Origin: Lytechinus variegatus
Taxonomy: Eukaryota; Echinodermata; Echinoidea; Temnopleuroida; Toxopneustidae
Assembly: GCF_018143015.1 (NCBI RefSeq)
Contig: NC_054741.1
Location: 8,318,683 to 8,382,682 of the forward strand
Direction of reading: 5' to 3'
DNA length: 64,000 bases
Part shown: piece by piece, positions 10,027 through 64,000 of the stretch
Layout: every line of letters starts with the position of its first letter
Numbering within the stretch: the stretch's first letter is position 1
Translations under genes and position numbers: made by a program
The notes under the pieces: generated by a model
Told to the model about the DNA's origin: nothing
What the model saw: only the letters and a program-made list of their open reading frames with translations
Database searches by the model: none

Positions 10027-11934
10027 CAAGGGCGGCGGAACCAGGGGGGATTGCCCCCCCCCCCCAAAAAAAAAAAAATAATAAATAAATAAATAAAAAA
10101 TAAAAAAAATATAAAAATGCCCTTTTTTCAAAATGGAAAGTGCCTTTTTTAATGAAAACAATGTGCCCTTTTTCAAAGTGAAATATCCTTTTGAACTAAG
10201 ACATGATACATTTTAGGTTAGAAAATCACATTTTTTGGGGCTCGCGCTCGCATTGATGTTTTTTATTTTATTTTAGTATGGTACTTATTCTGTCCTTGGT
10301 TATACAATACTTAGAATGTCCAGTTTTAATATCCCAAATTTCTGGTTCGCGTTTTGCGCTCGCATTAATTATTTATTAAGTTACTCATTCTATTCTTGGT
10401 TACAAAAAGTGCTTAGAATGTCCAGTTTTCAGGTTGGAAAATCACAAATTTTCAACTCGCGCTTCGCGCTCGCATTATTAGAGTGGTGAGATATGTATCC
10501 CATTCATCAATCACTAAACGCAGTCTTTATCAGTCTCTTTTCTGGTCAGTATATTAAATTCCAGCTCGCGCTTCGTGCTCGCATTAGTTCTATACGATAC
10601 ACAACCTTTTCATGATAACAAGTGGAATGCCTCTGGCCGTCTCACCTGCATCACGCGGTTCAATATAGCAGCAGTGCTGACTTTGAAAACTACTCTAACT
10701 CGCACAAGATGTTCAGTGATACATGGTTACTCTTATGTCCACTTTTATGAACTAGACCAATAAACTTACAGAGATATGATGGTTATTGAACAAAAAAACC
10801 AACATGGCCAAAGTTCATTGACCCTAAATGACCTTTGACCTTAATCGTGAGACCTGAAACTTGCACAACATGTTCAGTGATGCTTGATTACTATTATGTC
10901 TAAGTTTCATGAATCAGATCCATAAACTTTCAAAGTTATGATGGAAATTCAACAGATACACCCAATTCGGCCAAAGTTCATTGACCTTTGACCTTGGTCA
11001 TGTGACCTGAAATGCGCACAGGATGTTCAGTGATACTTGATTACTCTAATGTCCAAGTTTAACGAACTAGACCAATAAACTTTCAAAGTTATGATGGTAA
11101 TTCAACAGATACCCCCTATTCGGCCAAAGTTCATTGACCTTTGACCTTGGTAATGTGACGTGAAACTCATGAAGGATGTTCATTGATACTTGATTAACCT
11201 TATGTCCAAGTTTCATGAACTAGGTACATATATTTTCTAAGTTATGATGACATTTCAAAAACTTAACCTCAGGTTAAGATTTCGATGTTGATTCCTCCAA
11301 CATGGTCTAAGTTCATTGACCCTAAATGACCTTTGACCTTGGTCATGTGACATGAAACTCTAATAGGATGTTCAGTAATACTTGATTAACCTTTTGGCCA
11401 AGTTTCATGAACTAGGTCCATATACTTTCTAAGTTATGATGTCATTTCAAAAACTTAACCTCAGGTAAAGATTTGATGTTGACGCCGCCGCCGCCGTCGG
11501 AAAAGCGGCGCCTATATTCTCACTCTGCTATGCAGGTGAGACAAAAACTGATCGGAGTGTTCAATTTCATGTCTTAGAAATGTCCTAAAGTTTGAGCTCG
11601 CTATTCGCGCGCGCAACATCTAGCGAGGATGCCCTTTTTACAGTAATAAGCGACATATTTGACAAAAAGAGAATTTCACAACTTCAGATTTGATTTTTTT
11701 TTCCAAGCCGCTTGCTCGCTCGCGGAAAAATAAAGTTAAAGCCTTAATATATATATCAATGAGAAACCACCTCAAAAAAGGTTTTGCTCAACTTAATAAC
11801 TACAAAACACACAGCTACTTAATGCAGATGATCTCATATTATTATGGTGAAATATCCGTTTGCATAAAAATGCAAATTTTGCATTTTTTGGGCTTTGCTC
11901 CCTCCCCCAACGAAAATACGTTCCGCCGCCCCTG
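10027..11934. mobile_element. hAT-like non-autonomous element with GCGAG-motif array, interrupted by R1
   Basis: Left terminus CAAGGGCGGCGGAAC and right terminus GTTCCGCCGCCCCTG form an inverted repeat. Flanks CATGTGTG (10019-10026) and CATGTGGT (11935-11942) agree at 6 of 8 positions, an aged 8-bp duplication. The left part has four spaced copies of the motif GCTCGCGCTTCGCGCTCGC-like (near 10240, 10341, 10456 and 10563), about 110 bp apart. Repeat R1 is inserted at 10618-11549. No transposase is encoded. Confidence 0.6.
10618..11549. repeat. Dispersed repeat R1, copy 2 (four internal subunits)
   Basis: Same start, same end and same GTCTCACCTGC/GCAGGTGAGAC inverted repeat as the copy at 1145-2257, but about 180 bp shorter, close to the loss of one internal subunit. 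It is nested inside the GCGAG-array element at 10027-11934. The GCC run is also shorter (GACGCCGCCGCCGCCGTCGG). Confidence 0.7.
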
Positions 11935-11942
11935 CATGTGGT

Positions 11943-13003: not shown

Positions 13004-14147
13004 AATAAAACAAAACAAGCATAGCTTCAGGTTAGCCCTTGATTTTTGTTTATGAATATGATATATGGGCTGGCATCTTTAGGGGATACGTGGATAAAAG
13101 GGATGGTCCAGGCTGGAGATATTCATATCTCAATAAACAGAGTAAAATTTACAAAGCATTAAAATGATGAAAGTTTGATCAAAATCGGGTAACAAATAAC
13201 GAAGTTATTGAATTTTAAAGATTTGCATTATTCCGGTGAAACAGTTCTAGGCATGTCTTTATAAATATTCCTGAGGTGGGCTGATGATGCTATATCCTCA
13301 CTTCTACTTTATTATATGAAATGAGGTTTATTCAAAATTTTTCTACCAAGAACTAAAACAATTGGATTGACAACTGATTAAGTGCATTGGTTATTTATTG
13401 CCGCAACTTATTTCATCATAATGGAGACACATCATTTACACATGTATGAAATAATTAAACATTTATTATTTCATGTAATAACATAAGAAAGGGGAAAGTG
13501 GGGATGTGACACCGGTTACACTTCGTATTTCCGAAGCTTCGTAATTCCGAAGGTTCTTTATTCCGAAGGTTCGTAATTCCGAAACACGTAAATTGCCTAT
13601 ACCTCGATGTTCGTTAATCCGAAAACGAAAAAGGGTTCGTTAATCCGAACATTTGTGGCGTAATTCCGACGATTCGTTATTCCGAAGGTTCGATAATCCG
13701 AAAACGAAATAAGGTTCGTTGTTCCGAAGGTTCGTTAATCCGAAAACGAAATAAGGTTCGTTGTTCCGAAGGTTCGTTAATCCGAAAACGAAATAAGGTT
13801 CGTTGTTCCGAAGGTTCGTTAATCCGAAAACGAAAAAAGGTTCGTTATTCCGAAGGTTCGTTGATCCGAAAACGAAATAAGGTTCGTTTTTCCGAAGGTT
13901 CGTTAATCCGAAAACGAAATAAGGTTCGTTAATCCGAAAACAAAATAAGGTTCGTTTTTCCGAAGGTTCGTTAATCCGAAAACGAAATAAGGTTCGTTTA
14001 TCCGAAAACAAAATAAGGTTCGTTAATCCGAAAACAAAATAAGGTTCGTTAATCCGAAAAATGAAAACCGGGAAAGCAGAGGCAGAGGCAAGGGGAGGGG
14101 CGGGGGACACTGTTGCCGTTCAATTATCATATGAGGATGGGAAGGCA

Positions 14148-16290
14148 AGGGCGGCCGAACGAATTTTCGTTGGGGGTAAAGCCAAAAAATGAAACTCATA
14201 CGTCAAAATTGGGACTGTGGTGATATTTTCACCTTAAGATTATCATCTGCTTGAAGTCATTGTCTGTTTGATAGTGATTAAGTAGGAAATAACTTTTTTG
14301 AAGTGACTTCTTATTATGGCAAAATGTATATTTAGGCTTTATTTTTCGGGAGAGAGTATAATGAGCGAGCGGCTTGGTAAAACAAATTCAAAGGTGAAGT
14401 TGTATAACGTTTTTTGTGGTCAGTTATTATTAAAATGGCATTATTGCGAGGTGTTGCGAGCGTGAATCACAAGCTAAACTTTAGGTTATTTCAATAAAAA
14501 ATGAAAATTAGTTTTTAAAAATCCGAGCAGATTTCTGCTGTCATTAAAAAGATGTGCATCTAACTAAAGAATTAACACGAGCGCAAAACGCGAGCTTAAA
14601 CATACTGACCAGAAAAGGAACCTGTTAAAGAAAGCATTTAGTGACCTCTTTAGGATGCATATTTCACCAATCGAATGAGAGTGCGAAGCGCAAGCTGAAA
14701 TTTTTCAATATTCCAGCCTGAAAACTTAACTTAACTTGTATACTTTAAAAAGAGTATTTTATTTCGAAAAAACATGAAAAACGGCATATTTATTTTTGAA
14801 AAAGGAACTTTCCCATTTTGGAAAATATTAATTCCCCTGTTTTTTATTCCATTTTTGATGCCCCCTGCCTCCCTCCCGGCGGATCCAACTTTCGTCAAAT
14901 AGAGGGGGGGGGGGATTTTTTTTAGCCATATTTTCCTTGATCGGCAGTTTAAAGTTGATTTTTGTTTGTTTCTTTGAAAGGGTAGTCCTAACAGTCAATA
15001 ATTATCTTTATCCTTATAAAATAAAGTAAATATGTAATAACATGATAAACCCTTTTTAAATAATGCGAGCGCGAGCTATATTTTTGTTAATATGATGGGC
15101 AATATGTTTGTGATCTTCAAAGCGAGATGCCTATGTAACTAAATTTAGATAATAACTGCTAGCAAGAAGCGCGAACAGAATTTTTAAATATATAAGCTCT
15201 GATCTGATCTAAAGGAGACATTTTAAGAACTTTTTGCAGTTAGCCATGAAGACGATGCGTGTTTTAGCCAATGGCGGTGGAACGTATTTTTTTTTTTTGG
15301 GGGGGGCAAAGTAAAAAAAAGGGGCCAATAGGGGCAATTTGGTGCAAACGGATATTTTCACCATTAGATTATCATCTGTGTAAAGAGGTTGTGTGTTTTT
15401 GTAGTAACTAAATTGAGCACAATTTTTTAAGTGATCACTAAACATGCTAAAGTTATATATTTACGTTTCATTTCTGCGAGCGTAGAGAGCAAGCGGTTTG
15501 GGGGAAAAAGTCAAATCTGAAGATGTAAAATTCACCTTTTTGGTCAATACTGTGAAAAGGGCATCCTTGTGAGATGTTGCGAGCGAATCACGTGCTCAAA
15601 CTTTTGGAAATTTCATGTGGGCCTAGAATGATGATATTGATATAGATATCATTTACCCAGGGAAGCCACTTCAGTTCTGAAAACTATTCTCCCAGCTATT
15701 ATTATTTTTTTTTACAAGAATGCTATAGAATGTCCAGTTTTCAGGTTGGAAAATCGGAAAAATTTGGCTCACGTTTCTCGCTCGCATTGTTTATTGAGGA
15801 ACTCATTCTATTCCTGGTTACAAAAAAGAAGTATGAAATGTCCAGTTTTCAGGTTGGAATATCACAAATTTTAAGCTTGCTGTTCGCGCTCTCATTATAT
15901 AGTTCGTGAGATATATATTCATGAGTCACTAAATGCAGTCCTTAAAAGATTACTTTCTGAAGCCTGTTGCATAAAACTTTTTACCTGAGAAAACTCTGGT
16001 AAAAACTGAAAACTAAGGTTAGTCTGATTTCCGCCAATTACTTTAGCACAGGGCAAAAACTCCTGTAAAAACAACCTGAGTTTTCTCAGGTAAAAAGTTT
16101 CATGCAACGGGCCCCAGGTCAGTATATAAACAAATTACAACTCGCCCTCGCATTAATTCTTTAGAAAGATACACATCTTTCTCACGATTACAAAAAATGC
16201 TCCGAATGCTCACTTCACGTCTTGTTACATGAAATGTCTACTAGTTTCAGCTTGCGATTCGCGCTTTCAACATCTCACAAGGATCATTAT
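14148..16290. repeat. GCGAG-motif element fragments inside the foldback interior
   Basis: Two copies of the terminus seen at 10027-11934 occur, near 14148 (AGGGCGGCCGAACGAATTTT) and 15268 (AATGGCGGTGGAACGTATTT), each followed by the same internal sequence in the same orientation. Motifs of the GCGAGCGCGAAGCGCGAGC class, some inverted, recur through the segment at about 100-bp spacing. It carries no coding sequence. Confidence 0.55.
15957..16119. mobile_element. Small MITE with long inverted repeats
   Basis: The left end CCTGTTGCATAAAACTTTTT then ACCTGAGAAAACTC is mirrored by the right end CTCAGGTAAAAAGTTTCATG then CAACGGGCC. The arms are about 35 bp around a short core. It is nested inside the foldback interior. 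Confidence 0.65.
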
Positions 16291-17341
16291 TAGTATTATT
16301 TTTATTTTTATTACCAGCAGAAGCTGTTATTAAAAATGACATCCCCTCCAATACAAATCCTATTATCTAGAGGTTGCTCGCACGCTTCCAACACACTTGA
16401 TCCCCTGCATCTTTAATTAAATTATTTGCTTATAGGCAGCAATTGCTCAGATAAAATCGAAATTAGCCTATGCTTGATCAGGGCGCCATTCTTAATGAAA
16501 TACATGCTTTGGCCCCAACACACATCATCGATCGTTATTACTATCATTGCATAATATCGTGTAATCTTGTAATGACAACATCGTTTTTGTTACCAAAATG
16601 AATTATTTTCATTTTCGGAAATACGAACCTTATTTAATTTTCGGATTAACGAACCTTATTTCGTTTTCGGATTAACGAACCTTATTTCGTTTTCGGATTA
16701 ACGAACCTTATTTCGTTTTCGGATTAACGAACCTTATTTCGTTTTCGGATTAACGAACCTTCGGAATTACGAACCTTATTTCTTTTTCGGATTAACGAAC
16801 CTTCGGAATTACGAACCTTATTTTGTTTTCGGATTAACGAACCTTCGGAATTACGAACCTTATTTCGTTTTCGGATTAACGAACCTTCGGAATTACGAAC
16901 CTTATTTCTTTTTCGGATTAACGAACCTTCGGAATTACGAACCTTATTTTGTTTTCGGATTAACGAACCTTCGGAATTACGAACCTTATTTCGTTTTCGG
17001 ATTAACGAACCTTCGGAATTACGAACCTTATTTCGTTTTCGGATTGACGAACCTTCGGAATTACGAACCTTCGGAATTACGAACCTTCGGAAATACGAAC
17101 CTTCGGAATAACCGAACCTTCGGAATTACGAAGCTTCGGAATTACGAATGTATGCGTGTGACACCATCAGCCCACCTAATGAATATTCATGACGATGTGT
17201 AAATAACTGTTTTCACAAAATATCGATACATTTAAATGTCAATAACTTCTTTATTTGTTATCCGATTTTGATGAAAATTTAAGCATTTTTCTCTGTTAAT
17301 TTTATTATATTTATTTAGATATAAATATTTTCAGCCCATTC

Positions 17342-61600: not shown

Positions 61601-64000
61601 AAATGCATGAATATAATATGGTTTAGATATATAATATGATTTGAATGAATTCAAGCAGATGATGGATTTCTATTTAATATGTTTCTCTCCCCCCCTTCTC
61701 ATTTCTAGATAAGCTATGACGATGAGACTGAATTCATTTGGTCAGGGTTAGATTGTGAAGGAGGAGAATACAGACTACAAGAATGTTATATACCAAGTAT
61801 TGGACGGGAATTAACCTCACATTGTCAATACATCGGTGGTGCTCACTGTGCTCTTTCACAATCTCTTATCCATGAGAGTAAGATAGATTTTTATTACATT
61901 AAAAAATTCTCTTAAGTGTATAATTATATTTCTAGATTTATAATTTGGAAATTTTTTCATATATCATTGATCATTTAAAGCTATAATCATTTTGCAATGT
62001 TTCTGTGGCAGTATCTATTAAAAATCAAAAGTATGCACCTTGAATAGTTATCATGATTGAAATAGTTTGCTATCATCTAAATGTATTCAACTTGACTCAT
62101 AAATAATAAACATGGTTTGTAATAAAAGCATATTTCCATTTGATAAATGTCACCCTCCCACTGCCTTTCCATTACTATTCTTACCTTCTATTTGGTAAAC
62201 ATGAGTTTAATTTCAATCTTACTCATTTACATAGTCCTTTTCTCTGTGCACATTTTTATTCTTTTTCCTTATATACCCCTATCATCACTCCTATCTTTTT
62301 CTATTTATTTCACTATTTTTGTCTTGCCCACCAGAGGTGAAGGCGAGACTTAGGGATTCAAATGTCGTCCGTCCGTCACAAATCTAATGACACATAACTC
62401 CACAACCGTAAGTCACTTTTCAACCAAACTTGGATGGTAGATGGACTTGGGGGACCTGCATGTTATGCTGCAGTCGGAGGTTACATGGTAAGGTCAAAGG
62501 TCATTTTTAGGTCAACGTTAAAGTTTACATGCAAGACTCTCTTATGACACCTAACTCTGCAACCGTTAGTCACTTTTCAACCAAGCTTGGATGATATATG
62601 GACTTGAGGCACTTGCATGTCATGCTGCAGAGGACAGTACATGACAAGTTCAAAGGGTCATTTTCAGGTCAACGTTAAAGTTTACGTGCAAGGCTCTTTA
62701 AACAAGTGTTATTCCATCCCAGTCCTTTCACAATGAAGTTTCGATACAATTCTGTTGCGTGCCCTCGCAAATCACGATATTTCTGGGTTTTTTCATAAGT
62801 GGGTGAGACACAAAATTGCTTTTGCCTTGTTCAATTCTACTTTTATACCTCATTTGTTCCTTCTATAGCTTGGAAGTCTTTTAGATCACCTTTGAAGGGG
62901 TATTCCATGCTAACATTATATACAATTGAATACGTGTAGATGAATTAAGATCAGACAAAGCACTACAAATTTCGTCAAAATCAAACATGATGTAAAAAAA
63001 AGTTTTGCATTATTTCAGTGAAACAGCTCAATGCGCATCTTTATAAATATGCAATGAGTAAGCTTATTCTTTGATTACTTTCTATTTCATTTTGTAATGT
63101 GTAAGGTAATTATTGCTGCAAATTATTTTGTTATAAGGGGGACTGACCATACTCATATGTATGAAAACATGAAATTATTATGATTTCATATAACATAAAA
63201 AAGGCAAAGTGGTGACATTTCATCATCAGCCCACCTAATGAATATTAATGACGGCATGCGTATAATTATTTTCACATATATTGCTTAACTTTTGTTATCA
63301 GATTTGATGAAATTTTTAGCGTTTTGCTCAGTGAATTTAACTATATTTTTTTATATATAAATATTTCAGCTTAGAGTACTTAATATCTGTTTCCGAAATC
63401 TCTGTTAGATGGCGCTGTTCAATTCATTTCTGATGGAGGTGCCAACAGTGGTGCCATAGCCGTCTTTTACCGTGGAGTGTGGGGTAAAATCTGTCCGGAT
63501 GACTGGATATGGTCCCTGGCAAATATGGCATGTTTTCAGCTGGGATATTATGGTGCCATTGAGTCTACTAGTGCTGTAAGCTGAGATTGAGTTATGAATT
63601 ATTTTCATATATTCTATTGTTTTTTTCCATTTTCAACTTTGATATAATATGATTTATAATGATAGATAATTCACTTACAATAAAAAATAATTGAACAGGT
63701 TTAGAATATAAAACATAAATACTGAAAAGCTGGCTTATATTTTGCATAGCCCTGCAGTAGAGGGCGACATAACACAATCATGTAAATATAAACAAAGTGG
63801 AATATTAAAGAACGATAAGTGTACATGCTCTTGTATACCATTGATTAATAAAATGGACTTATGAATAGGCATTAGCACTTTGTTATATACAAAGAGATAT
63901 TATTCATTTACAGGTGCCTGATACAGATGATGGAATCGCCTTTCATATGCATTCCCTACAATGTGATGAATTTGAAGGGTACATCACATCCTGTGATTTA
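36811..64000 (+). CDS. Large multi-SRCR (group A) protein, at least ten domains; both ends open
   Basis: Twenty exons: 36811-36983, 37478-37634, 38365-38531, 39351-39504, 39756-39916, 40895-41039, 41570-41733, 42541-42694, 43172-43341, 44087-44231, 45201-45358, 46257-46416, 47332-47501, 48563-48725, 50207-50373, 50767-50935, 52167-52333, 61709-61877, 63409-63575, 63914-64000. All have GT/AG borders where visible and join into one frame of 1055 codons, in ten SRCR domains of six cysteines each (the last cut by the window). SRCR domains are extracellular, disulphide-bonded ligand-binding modules, used in echinoderms in a very large family suspected of immune recognition. No signal peptide exon was found upstream, and whether the protein ends in a membrane anchor is unknown. 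The intron inside domain 9 is 9.4 kb and hosts two antisense genes, so a predictor might wrongly split the gene there; phase and domain continuity argue for one gene. Confidence 0.85.
37635..38364. other. Intron of the large SRCR gene, no feature beyond an ATTC run
   Basis: Contains a short CATC/CATT microsatellite near 37677-37705. Nothing else was recognised. Confidence 0.5.
38365..39504 (+). CDS. SRCR domain 2 of the large protein
   Basis: Near-consensus group-A domain: [37 protein letters not shown]; second half [30 protein letters not shown]. Confidence 0.9.
38532..39350. other. Intron of the large SRCR gene, nothing seen
   Basis: AT-rich intron inside SRCR domain 2; no repeat or RNA gene recognised. 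Confidence 0.5.
39756..41039 (+). CDS. SRCR domain 3 of the large protein
   Basis: [11 protein letters not shown], then [18 protein letters not shown]. The second half has lost the AYFG and GxG-ILLDD signature ([17 protein letters not shown]) but keeps LTHC, YTC and VSC. Carries an N-G-T sequon. Confidence 0.85.
39917..40894. other. Intron of the large SRCR gene, nothing seen
   Basis: Intron inside SRCR domain 3; no bounded repeat recognised. Confidence 0.5.
41570..42694 (+). CDS. SRCR domain 4 of the large protein
   Basis: [42 protein letters not shown]; second half [31 protein letters not shown]. Closest in wording to domains 1 and 2, suggesting recent duplication. Confidence 0.9.
41734..42540. 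other. Intron of the large SRCR gene, nothing seen
   Basis: Intron inside SRCR domain 4. The 104-codon open frame on the minus strand (41948-42262) has no recognisable domain. Confidence 0.5.
43172..44231 (+). CDS. SRCR domain 5 of the large protein
   Basis: [42 protein letters not shown]; second half [22 protein letters not shown] and NDAGVVC. Confidence 0.88.
44870..45085 (+). mobile_element. SINE 3' fragment with ATT tail
   Basis: Contains GGTAAATGGGTACCTGGCAG and CTTAGAGACTTCTGACAAAG, then AAGCGCTATATAAGCAAGTA and a short ATT tail. This 3' layout (GCGCTATATAAG plus ATT repeats) is common in echinoderm tRNA-derived SINEs. No tRNA-like head is present, so it is 5'-truncated. Confidence 0.6.
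45201..46416 (+). CDS. SRCR domain 6 of the large protein
   Basis: [39 protein letters not shown]; second half [29 protein letters not shown]. The acidic pair after the first cysteine is lost (GYWGD). Its internal intron holds a tRNA-derived SINE and an R4 repeat. Confidence 0.85.
45490..45640. repeat. Dispersed repeat R4, single unit
   Basis: TTTTCAACCCATTCTCACAA, CACATTGGTCTCGAGGTAAA, TTGCCATGGTAAC and CATATTATGGCCCAAAATCT. The same words flank the LINE at 59600-61510. Confidence 0.6.
45861..46172 (+). mobile_element. tRNA-derived SINE (Thr-like head)
   Basis: Head 45861-45931 begins GCCATGG and ends CCATGGC, a perfect 7-bp acceptor-type pairing, with box A-like TGGTGTAGTGGTT and box B-like GTTCGAATCCC; CTTGTAA in the anticodon position resembles tRNA-Thr(UGU). 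The body continues through GGAATGCTTCCCAGGGAGTG and TTACCGGGGTAATA to AAGCGCTTTATAGATAC. It lies in the sense direction in the intron of SRCR domain 6. It is a retroposon, not a working tRNA gene: the D-arm is not well formed and the transcript body is fused. Confidence 0.8.
47332..48725 (+). CDS. SRCR domain 7 of the large protein
   Basis: [39 protein letters not shown]; second half [30 protein letters not shown]. The exon ends EQDYYD and is followed 23 bp later by a 38-bp minisatellite. Confidence 0.88.
47840..47981. mobile_element. Small MITE with GGGCCTGTTTCATAAAACTT ends
   Basis: Left GGGCCTGTTTCATAAAACTT, right AAGTTTTTATGAAACTAGACCC, inverted with few mismatches. A different repeat starting GGGTGTTTCATAAAGCTG follows immediately at about 47986. 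Confidence 0.65.
48749..49620. repeat. 38-bp minisatellite in an SRCR intron
   Basis: The unit starts GTCAACATCTTACCCTGATA and is exactly 38 bp (48749 to 48787 and so on). About ten near-identical units run to about 49128, then about a dozen degenerate ones (AACATCTAACTCTGATAGCA class) to about 49620. The identical block is the youngest part and lies next to the splice donor of the exon ending at 48725. Confidence 0.9.
50055..50140 (+). repeat. SINE tail fragment
   Basis: AAAGTGCATAGAGATACTTT, then GCTATATAAGTGATA and ATT repeats, resembling the 3' end of the SINE fragment at 44870-45085. Confidence 0.45.
50207..50935 (+). CDS. SRCR domain 8 of the large protein
   Basis: [20 protein letters not shown] (an N-A-T sequon), [20 protein letters not shown]; second half [29 protein letters not shown]. 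The most divergent N-terminal half in the gene, with the shortest internal intron (393 bp). Confidence 0.85.
50936..52166. other. Intron between SRCR domains 8 and 9, no feature recognised
   Basis: AT-rich. A 113-codon open frame at 51013-51354 shows no domain and no splice support. Confidence 0.45.
52167..61877 (+). CDS. SRCR domain 9 of the large protein, split by a 9.4-kb intron
   Basis: First exon 52167-52333: [37 protein letters not shown]. Second exon 61709-61877: [28 protein letters not shown]. The exons match in phase (0) and together supply six cysteines. The intron contains two opposite-strand otopetrin-like genes and two LINE fragments. Confidence 0.82.
52610..52765. repeat. Decayed copy of the 34563-34715 repeat
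   Basis: Shares GTTACCATGATAACA, CTCAGCCAATCA, GATCTGACTACTTGTCA and AATGTTGATGAAAGG in the same order as the copy upstream of the large SRCR gene. Confidence 0.5.
53340..53950 (-). mobile_element. LINE 3' end (reverse-transcriptase C-terminal part)
   Basis: The minus-strand frame reads [20 protein letters not shown], then [16 protein letters not shown], the H-YNTR-A-N/PK/F-GP-IWN-L block near the end of CR1/L2-type ORF2. The 3' UTR ends in an AATTGAATT-type tail (about 53345-53372 on the plus strand). It is 5'-truncated. Confidence 0.75.
54541..56424 (-). CDS. Otopetrin-like proton channel, intronless (copy 1)
   Basis: A 627-residue protein in a single open frame with about 12 hydrophobic segments, the otopetrin topology: about residues 14-36 and 49-75, then a long hydrophilic loop, then ten more. 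Family-like blocks are [40 protein letters not shown] (compare the IEYSLI..LY..W stretch of otopetrins), [20 protein letters not shown], and the C-terminal [19 protein letters not shown] pattern. Otopetrins conduct protons across the plasma membrane and serve in acid sensing and otoconia formation; this sequence is divergent, so that role is inference. The first loop has a CRHC pair and an RRWSLP basophilic-kinase-like site, both present in copy 2. The gene sits antisense in the intron of SRCR domain 9, 889 bp downstream of copy 2. An alternative is an otopetrin-related orphan family. Confidence 0.75.
   Translation of the reverse strand: MEELQARFIPKTYYNGMILLCFLSCAGVSCVVFYALPPIFQDGKSNEPGYITFVVINLVLSSVILIFSVYVGWLIKNKAKFHRNQEVFWPTQCRHCAHVIGLQHAGSSSPALKHNKREQFQQKSIPRRWSLPDNLNSFKGSMTKYHMDNSTIMSSELFMKQSNSPSNQRIQFIYKKPHKSLLLLFYIFGSLALIEAPLELVGNSLCFTDSGRSVLSNVALVAKTINIVAQGTAFLFSMLFFNTYYDAVIIAKAKFSIGMSIFFALSITNAALRIGHPITERILPVYDPLKDSCDLNTTIQQLVIDQEEATLTMRTEVSIIAVGILSHIWRSMIPQCFLETPNVIPEFDYFEAINKRPLSQRLLQTLKNGYLKIKLSFWRTMDNDQYLLQEPSRRGRNSPSLRLFYILTIVLSTMYVSLYLYTFKSNTIEYKSTKSYIELALRMSFYLPFIGLYHFQIFLAGNSKTLLLRDQILGNLIQNHDIVLMLSAGGIFMRNVFRLVAAIGILMRPFTIYPDETALASYSILYSAYQVYCIWTMTSFLLTVQRRRLTSDAQVKWVSICLMFTMSINGTNWLVDLFHESSWFEFKTYYGLIGTVIGGSIEPLHSLFSLHAVMIAYGTYQVIRKDT
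56425..57313. other. Spacer between the two otopetrin-like genes
   Basis: It should hold the 3' UTR of copy 2 and the promoter of copy 1. AT-rich, no repeat or conserved motif recognised. Confidence 0.45.
57314..59272 (-). CDS. Otopetrin-like proton channel, intronless (copy 2)
   Basis: A 652-residue paralogue of the gene at 54541-56424, same strand, head to tail. It shares [14 protein letters not shown], a basophilic RRRSLP site, the [20 protein letters not shown] helix, [40 protein letters not shown] and [17 protein letters not shown]...P. About 12 membrane segments can be counted. Identity to copy 1 is clearly partial (roughly a third by eye), so the duplication is old even though both lack introns. 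The C-terminus extends about a dozen residues further ([15 protein letters not shown]). No promoter element could be assigned in the 889-bp spacer or upstream of 59272. Confidence 0.75.
   Translation of the reverse strand: MEQSSNKAERLPKGYYSSMLIITILISIGFCCAILKVLPLHPETGWDDEDRNVTNAVMRLFLSCIYFYLIVCLVWTIKKRETLHRHQQIFWPLRCRHCARIGGLVSKCSQSRADGTKTTRRDMTRRRSLPLLPSINNKSLDSIEPVAPRIEHIRQTSDNICLSNDNSETLKQEFCPINSETKQVQNTHLLKSSAFYRRPHKSLVILYNFFGTIALLNVPLETIGIFICLVDNNGSATQLTVNFNLVCEGVFYLMVTIGLACNLAFFNMFYDAVFLQTSIFPTFIGVYFASGLGLLALKLVFPLGVVAQPSHDPLLVSCSELPIKLVSVLRIHEIRATPLYTEIGLISVGILWNIWASILPQSALKDIGNEEAAFEHFKKPCTVSIVITHIKNPRKIVRKVVTMWRKRFGVCHVILASLLAVSIFFSFDHFVVSRKSFNLSKITRTYILWCCNMICFLPFIALYRHQLFLSGDSKTFKLKDNVSFQYGLTGSQDVILLIGTGGMFLINIFRIVSAAGILYNHDSLSTDVLALACFGLIYYISQMYIVTSITSFLLIFQRKQIISKAEMKFVRICLMYTVCLNATDWLASVIDISDWKELTLYYGPVMGLKIGRFLQPVIWLYFLHVTILAYETEKDIRESRKGCDTHRELSIP
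59600..59861. repeat. Dispersed repeat R4, two units, left of the LINE
   Basis: Units with CCTCAGTTT, CCGATTTTCATTAAAGTTGG, CACATTGGTGTTGG, TTGCCATGGTAATGG and TATTTTGGC. They belong to the family at 45490 and 61255-61510. Confidence 0.6.
59862..61254 (+). mobile_element. Degenerate LINE: endonuclease and linker part of ORF2
   Basis: The plus-strand frames read [42 protein letters not shown] and LSDHN, the order of blocks in the APE-type endonuclease of CR1/L2/Jockey-like LINEs. A linker with [19 protein letters not shown] and [18 protein letters not shown] follows. The reading is broken by a stop near 60042 and by frame changes near 60390, 60580 and 60745, so it is dead. The reverse transcriptase is absent. 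Both flanks are R4 repeat units. Confidence 0.78.
61255..61510. repeat. Dispersed repeat R4, two units, right of the LINE
   Basis: TTTTCAACCAATTCTCATGA, CACATTGGGTTCGAGGTAAA, TTACCATGGTAACAACATAT, then a second unit with TAGGTCTTGGGGTAAAGATG and GTTGTCATGGTTACGGCAT. Confidence 0.6.
62385..62700. repeat. Dispersed repeat with a tandem ~150-bp duplication
   Basis: Two units in tandem, each with TAACTC..CAACCGT.AGTCACTTTT, CAACCAA.CTTGGATG, ATGGACTTG, TGCATGT.ATGCTGCAG and GGTCAACGTTAAAGTTTAC. GGCGAGAC precedes the first unit near 62342, recalling the ends of R1. Confidence 0.6.
62895..63372. mobile_element. Palindromic MITE (family F), uninterrupted copy
   Basis: Matches the split element at 13097-17341: CAGACAAAGCACTACAAATT, TCAGTGAAACAGCTCAATG, TTTATAAATATGC, then AGTGGTGACATTTCATCATC and AGCCCACCTAATGAATATTA, then the inverted right arm. 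It lies in the intron between SRCR domains 9 and 10 and ends 36 bp before the splice acceptor of the exon at 63409. Confidence 0.75.
63409..64000 (+). CDS. SRCR domain 10 of the large protein (cut by window end)
   Basis: First exon 63409-63575: [40 protein letters not shown]. Second exon from 63914: [17 protein letters not shown] and ITSC, running off the window. The acceptor of the first exon lies only 36 bp after a MITE. Confidence 0.85.

Follow-up and report, generated by a model that had tools for sequence, protein, structure and literature searches.

Foldback element and insertion site

The 3,643-bp element at positions 13514-17156 (plus strand) of the window, the 64,000-nucleotide stretch of Lytechinus variegatus DNA analysed here, is a discrete foldback transposon nested in a MITE. 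It is best explained as a non-autonomous, high-copy cut-and-paste element that most likely depends on a Mutator-superfamily (MULE) transposase acting in trans. The element runs from GGTTACAC to GTATGCG, with tips that recur genome-wide, and is bordered on the left (13505-13513) and on the right (17157-17165) by 9-bp copies of the target-site duplication TGTGACACC, to which no strand is assigned. The host MITE, also given without strand, is split into a left part at 13111-13513, itself an inverted-repeat element, and a right part at 17166-17336, both with approximate outer limits. When the flanks of the element were joined by script, the resulting MITE aligned to 63107-63366 with no break at the junction. 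This segment belongs to an uninterrupted copy at 62999-63366 (plus strand), which serves as a paralogous empty site: it is a different copy of the host MITE and not the same locus. The preliminary description had deduced the exact ends, the 9-bp duplication, the nesting and the readable empty-site copy from the window, and the duplicated TGTGACACC and the joined flanks bear it out on all these points.

Architecture of the arms

The left arm (13514-14060, plus strand) and the inverted right arm (16607-17156, minus strand) each consist of 16-, 26- and 42-bp units in tandem, and the two arrays face in opposite directions. The earlier proposal of a foldback with inverted minisatellite arms therefore stands, while its 26-bp unit proves real but incomplete, the 42-bp (16+26) units being present as well. 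The longest ungapped inverted match between the arms spans 292 nt at 93%, and the computed DNA duplex of the two arms reaches -505 kcal/mol with 482 pairs, as compared with -22 to -50 kcal/mol for five shuffles of one arm. The window element thus displays the structural hallmark of foldback elements, long inverted arms made of short tandem repeats. The units carry TTCG-N6-CGAA dyads, 23 in the left arm and 25 in the right one (48 in all) and none in the interior; shuffled arms contain a mean of less than 0.01 (300 shuffles per arm).

In 444 units of 26 bp, drawn from 23 loci, variation amounts to 0.2-1.1% in the TTCG and CGAA half-sites, as against 5-10% for core positions 5-8 and 5-31% for positions 17-19 and 22-26 of the spacer; it is equally low (0.2-1.4%) at positions 9-10 of the core and at positions 15, 16, 20 and 21 of the spacer. 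In 1,299 windows of 16 bp, a count that took both strands and may include near-palindromic sites twice, the half-sites vary by 0.5-3.8% and the core positions by 3.8-49%. The half-sites thus tend to be among the most constant positions of the unit, together with others; since units become alike through tandem copying and the scan admits a limited number of mismatches, this tendency falls short of a proof of selection.

The arms of 18 complete copies (20 loci retrieved with the interior, less L048 and L057, in which one end was unrecognised) were coded by the succession of their exact core types. The order is nearly fixed at the tips, the first three sites of the left arm being identical in 18/18 copies and the first four of the right arm in 17/18. 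Inner repeat number varies, with 12-24 sites per left arm and 14-25 per right arm. Arm length ranges from 0.29 to 0.58 kb, with a standard deviation of about 60 bp versus 9 bp for the interior. The left and right arms use different 16-bp cores, which suggests that the arms are homogenised within themselves and not with each other.

Family size and target-site duplications

The family is represented by thousands of ends in the 869.6-Mb assembly (33 contigs). With up to two mismatches in 23 bases, 3,932 left and 3,743 right ends were found, and none with the reversed-pattern controls. The left tip (41 bases including the preceding C) has 81 exact matches genome-wide and the right tip (40 bases) 660, and there are 6,634 occurrences of a 30-base arm unit; all the corresponding controls gave 0. 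A second family, considered because of the excess of exact right ends (660 versus 81 and 171 left), was rejected in view of the 3,932 and 3,743 ends at two mismatches, most of the excess being due to a commoner left-tip variant.

Pairing was assessed on C1 below 28.3 Mb, for 100 listed of the 3,932 left ends and 86 listed right ends, at distances of up to 12 kb. A listed right end lies within this distance of 59 of the 100 left ends; 36 of these pairs span 3-4 kb, nine 0.39-0.68 kb (miniatures), six 1-3 kb and eight more than 4 kb. The remaining 41 left ends, unpaired among the ends listed, reflect tip variants, truncation or an unlisted partner. The arms hence occur as inverted pairs of tips and not merely as single minisatellites.

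A target duplication flanks 21/21 copies in which both tips were recognised within three edits, a set that may include the window copy: ten are exact 9-bp, eight exact 8-bp and three 9-bp duplications with one mismatch. When flanks were swapped between copies, duplications were seen in 0/420 combinations. These are the 8-9-bp repeats that the preliminary description had predicted for other copies; they agree with the short target-site duplication typical of foldback elements and show that insertion proceeds by a staggered 8-9-bp cut. Immediately before the left tip, 16 copies have C and five have T, and none has a purine. Two copies fetched separately fall outside this set. L066, an older copy with 93% similarity to the window element, has both ends and no matching flanking duplication, and L067 (89%) has lost its left tip. 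Chimaeric copies of Galileo, too, are reported to have unmatched flanks (PMC3573991).

Two other arrangements were observed. At C1:390832-399036 the ends fit two consecutive copies in the same orientation, of 4,029 and 4,093 bp, each lying 30 bases from the preceding left end; this head-to-tail array could be a young satellite seed. An arms-only miniature of 352 bp, flanked by the duplication CTTTCATCT, is found at L005:402-753, and nine C1 end pairs of 393-676 bp, known by their size only, resemble it in that respect.

The interior is shared by the family

The interior (14061-16606, plus strand) is non-coding, common to the family and built with diverged direct and inverted inner repeats. It was present in each of the loci L001-L060, which came from arm, tip and interior searches, several of them overlapping, and are best matches. 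In the interior search, the best 40 of 4,479 candidates were scored, and most span the interior nearly whole at 95-99%. In the 18 complete copies the interior is between 2,528 and 2,569 bp long, with a mean difference of 1.3% and with 185 singleton and 43 shared variants. Such an excess of singletons is as expected of a recent burst, in a set biased to the young end of the family since its members were selected as closest to the window copy.

These data contradict the earlier view that the window copy had picked up other elements: its interior is that of the family. The different interiors predicted for other copies were likewise not encountered among the copies read, mostly best matches, which share one interior apart from deletions, insertions and a single miniature reduced to the arms. 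The inner direct and inverted repeats, together with matches to the window at 10.37-10.55 and 11.57-11.94 kb, suggest that the interior is of old composite origin; as it is composite in look and common to the family, any capture would predate the family's amplification. The matching window segments (10368-10552 and 11565-11935) resemble the interior at 72-91% over 32-297 bp, flank a block of tandem repeats and may represent the repeat from which the interior derives. Within the interior itself, 15962-16000 and 16074-16112 form a 39-bp inverted repeat (92%) that resembles an old MITE taken up before the family amplified.

The window copy contains three ORFs of at least 60 aa, the longest of which (156 aa) lies mostly on the left-arm repeats. 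None of them reaches the Pfam cut-off: the 156-aa repeat ORF has three matches below it (E 0.003, 0.004 and 0.52) and the other two have none. Rfam gave no match in the window element, and in the 20 interior loci the stop-to-stop frames of the interior stretch reach 120 aa at most. The absence of an encoded transposase, already noted from the window, is thereby upheld.

Search for a partner transposase

The genome has 31 PF10551 and 35 PF20700 matches, and at least one FLYWCH+MULE open frame, that of L069. Six of the 31 PF10551 loci (L061-L065 and L069) and one of the 35 PF20700 loci (L068) were read as full stretches. The arm array was absent from all seven, scanned with exact unit patterns for L061 and with one mismatch allowed for the other six, and they were rejected as autonomous copies. 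One or two isolated arm-unit matches, none forming an array, occur in each of L062, L063, L064, L065 and L068 and look like chance. The arms were likewise absent from 20 windows of 45 bases, a sparse sampling, around three further PF10551 loci (8, 8 and 4 windows). Two long loci retrieved by the family searches were also rejected as autonomous partners: L059 (8.3 kb) is a family copy with insertions, and so is L060 (10.2 kb), whose insertions include a reverse-transcriptase ORF. The latter, at L060:4686-7817, encodes 1,044 aa with reverse transcriptase and endonuclease domains (Pfam RVT_1 and Exo_endo_phos).

The left end of one family copy is 279 bp away from a FLYWCH-MULE transposase remnant at C1:2421983-2422375; arms were absent from four 40-base samples beyond the remnant and from one at the junction. 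At L068 (C19:1878000-1883600), a 692-aa PF20700 Mutator-like transposase frame stands beside a 489-bp direct repeat (99.6%), which is probably a tandem duplication. Some flank samples (L070-L085) of the MULE loci C4:30424304 and C3:50375322 are, by eye, mutual reverse complements, which suggests that both belong to a young MULE family.

Discussion

The design of the element is already known, and we liken it to named systems by design and not by sequence. The closest appear to be Muta1 of the mosquito Aedes aegypti and Tm1 of root-knot nematodes. Muta1 is active in yeast and is described as a type 2 foldback (PMC5225508). Like the present family, Muta1 and Muta5 make 8- or 9-bp duplications, have long TIRs with tandem subterminal repeats and include many non-autonomous derivatives with a variable number of repeats (PMC5225508). 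Their repeats of 12 and 15 bp, in TIRs of 145 and 151 bp, differ from the 14-bp dyads set here in 16- and 26-bp steps within 0.29-0.58-kb arms (18 copies), and most of their derivatives have variable interiors (PMC5225508), whereas the copies read here have one. Tm1 shares with our family composite, repeat-built TIRs of variable length, duplications that are mostly of 9 bp (8-10), and non-autonomous and MITE-like classes (PMC3169594). It differs in having a member with a FLYWCH+MULE transposase, when none was found here at the loci read, and in its 39 copies identified in M. incognita (PMC3169594), as against thousands of ends.

The TU elements of sea urchins, credited to Liebermann et al. 1983, are said to have long inverted repeats made of short tandem repeats, with a 15-bp unit and 8-bp duplications; we compare them by description only. 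The same work is cited as a sea-urchin foldback in PMC4079207. Tetris of Drosophila virilis and Galileo of D. mojavensis are also foldbacks with tandem TIR repeats variable in number, unlike ours in their units of about 210-220 bp (PMC4079207, PMC3573991). Tetris has duplications of similar size, 8-10 bp, and a middle of variable composition (PMC4079207), a trait that we take as belonging to the Tetris family and not as defining foldbacks generally; it does not apply to the copies read here, which have one interior. Described with no known transposase, Tetris was assigned to Mutator by its 8-10-bp duplications and earlier suggestions about foldbacks (PMC4079207).

The arms by themselves resemble minisatellites, yet an immobile locus, either an ordinary inverted minisatellite pair or a segmental duplication, is contradicted by the finding of thousands of ends, by the pairing of many of these, by the target duplications and by the empty-site copy, and deserves hardly any credence. 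More weight, though still that of a minority reading, goes to the same foldback design mobilised by another superfamily, be it of P type (the case of Galileo), hAT, Merlin or one not yet described. Duplications of 8-9 bp are not unique to MULEs, and those of Merlin and Novosib overlap in length with the ones observed. The hAT and P superfamilies make a fixed 8-bp target duplication, a misfit with the 13/21 copies at 9 bp, three of which have one mismatch. That the foldback form arose in different superfamilies is illustrated by Galileo, a P element, whose 7-bp duplications (PMC3573991) nevertheless differ from those found here and speak against that type; the PF10551 and PF20700 loci read, for their part, yielded no partner, as another superfamily would allow. 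An improbable origin is a relative of the Rehavkus-type MULEs, characterised by a 9-bp duplication, a minisatellite beside the 3' TIR and a PHD finger. The 9-bp duplications and the minisatellite DNA adjoining the TIR (PMC6446971) recall our element, but here both arms are minisatellites and 8/21 duplications are of 8 bp, and Rehavkus is given solely from arthropods and annelids (PMC6446971).

We favour mobilisation in trans by a MULE, an assignment based on the duplications, which at 8 or 9 bp fall within the 8-11 bp of the Mutator superfamily (PMC6446971), and on the arm design. Because no arms were found in the seven MULE loci read, we hold this assignment as probable and no more. Since the element carries no enzyme of its own, it probably borrows one, which might be supplied by a MULE at another genomic site or have come from one that has since been lost. 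The dyads would be putative sites recognised by a DNA-binding portion of the transposase, possibly as a dimer, and their arrays may raise its binding at both element ends; a role as secondary transposase-binding sites has been suggested for tandem TIR repeats (PMC3573991). Inner arm units could be gained and lost through slippage or unequal exchange. As a tentative extension, on which we would not insist, echinoderm foldbacks such as the long-orphaned TU type might be parasites of the Mutator superfamily, with arms that are evolving arrays of palindromic transposase-binding dyads, varying more in number than in sequence.

The family is fairly ordinary among its known kind, except that its copies are numerous and its arms regular. 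To the known foldbacks it contributes a very large family, in which the most similar copies point to a recent burst. The inverted repeats and tandem arrays that it supplies could rearrange chromosomes or seed satellites. Its arms, in which the tips are nearly fixed, inner units come and go and palindromic half-sites are retained, offer a clean test case for the evolution of repeat-built transposon ends. Finding the partner enzyme would give these elements their superfamily, a gap that they share with transposase-less foldbacks such as Tetris (PMC4079207).
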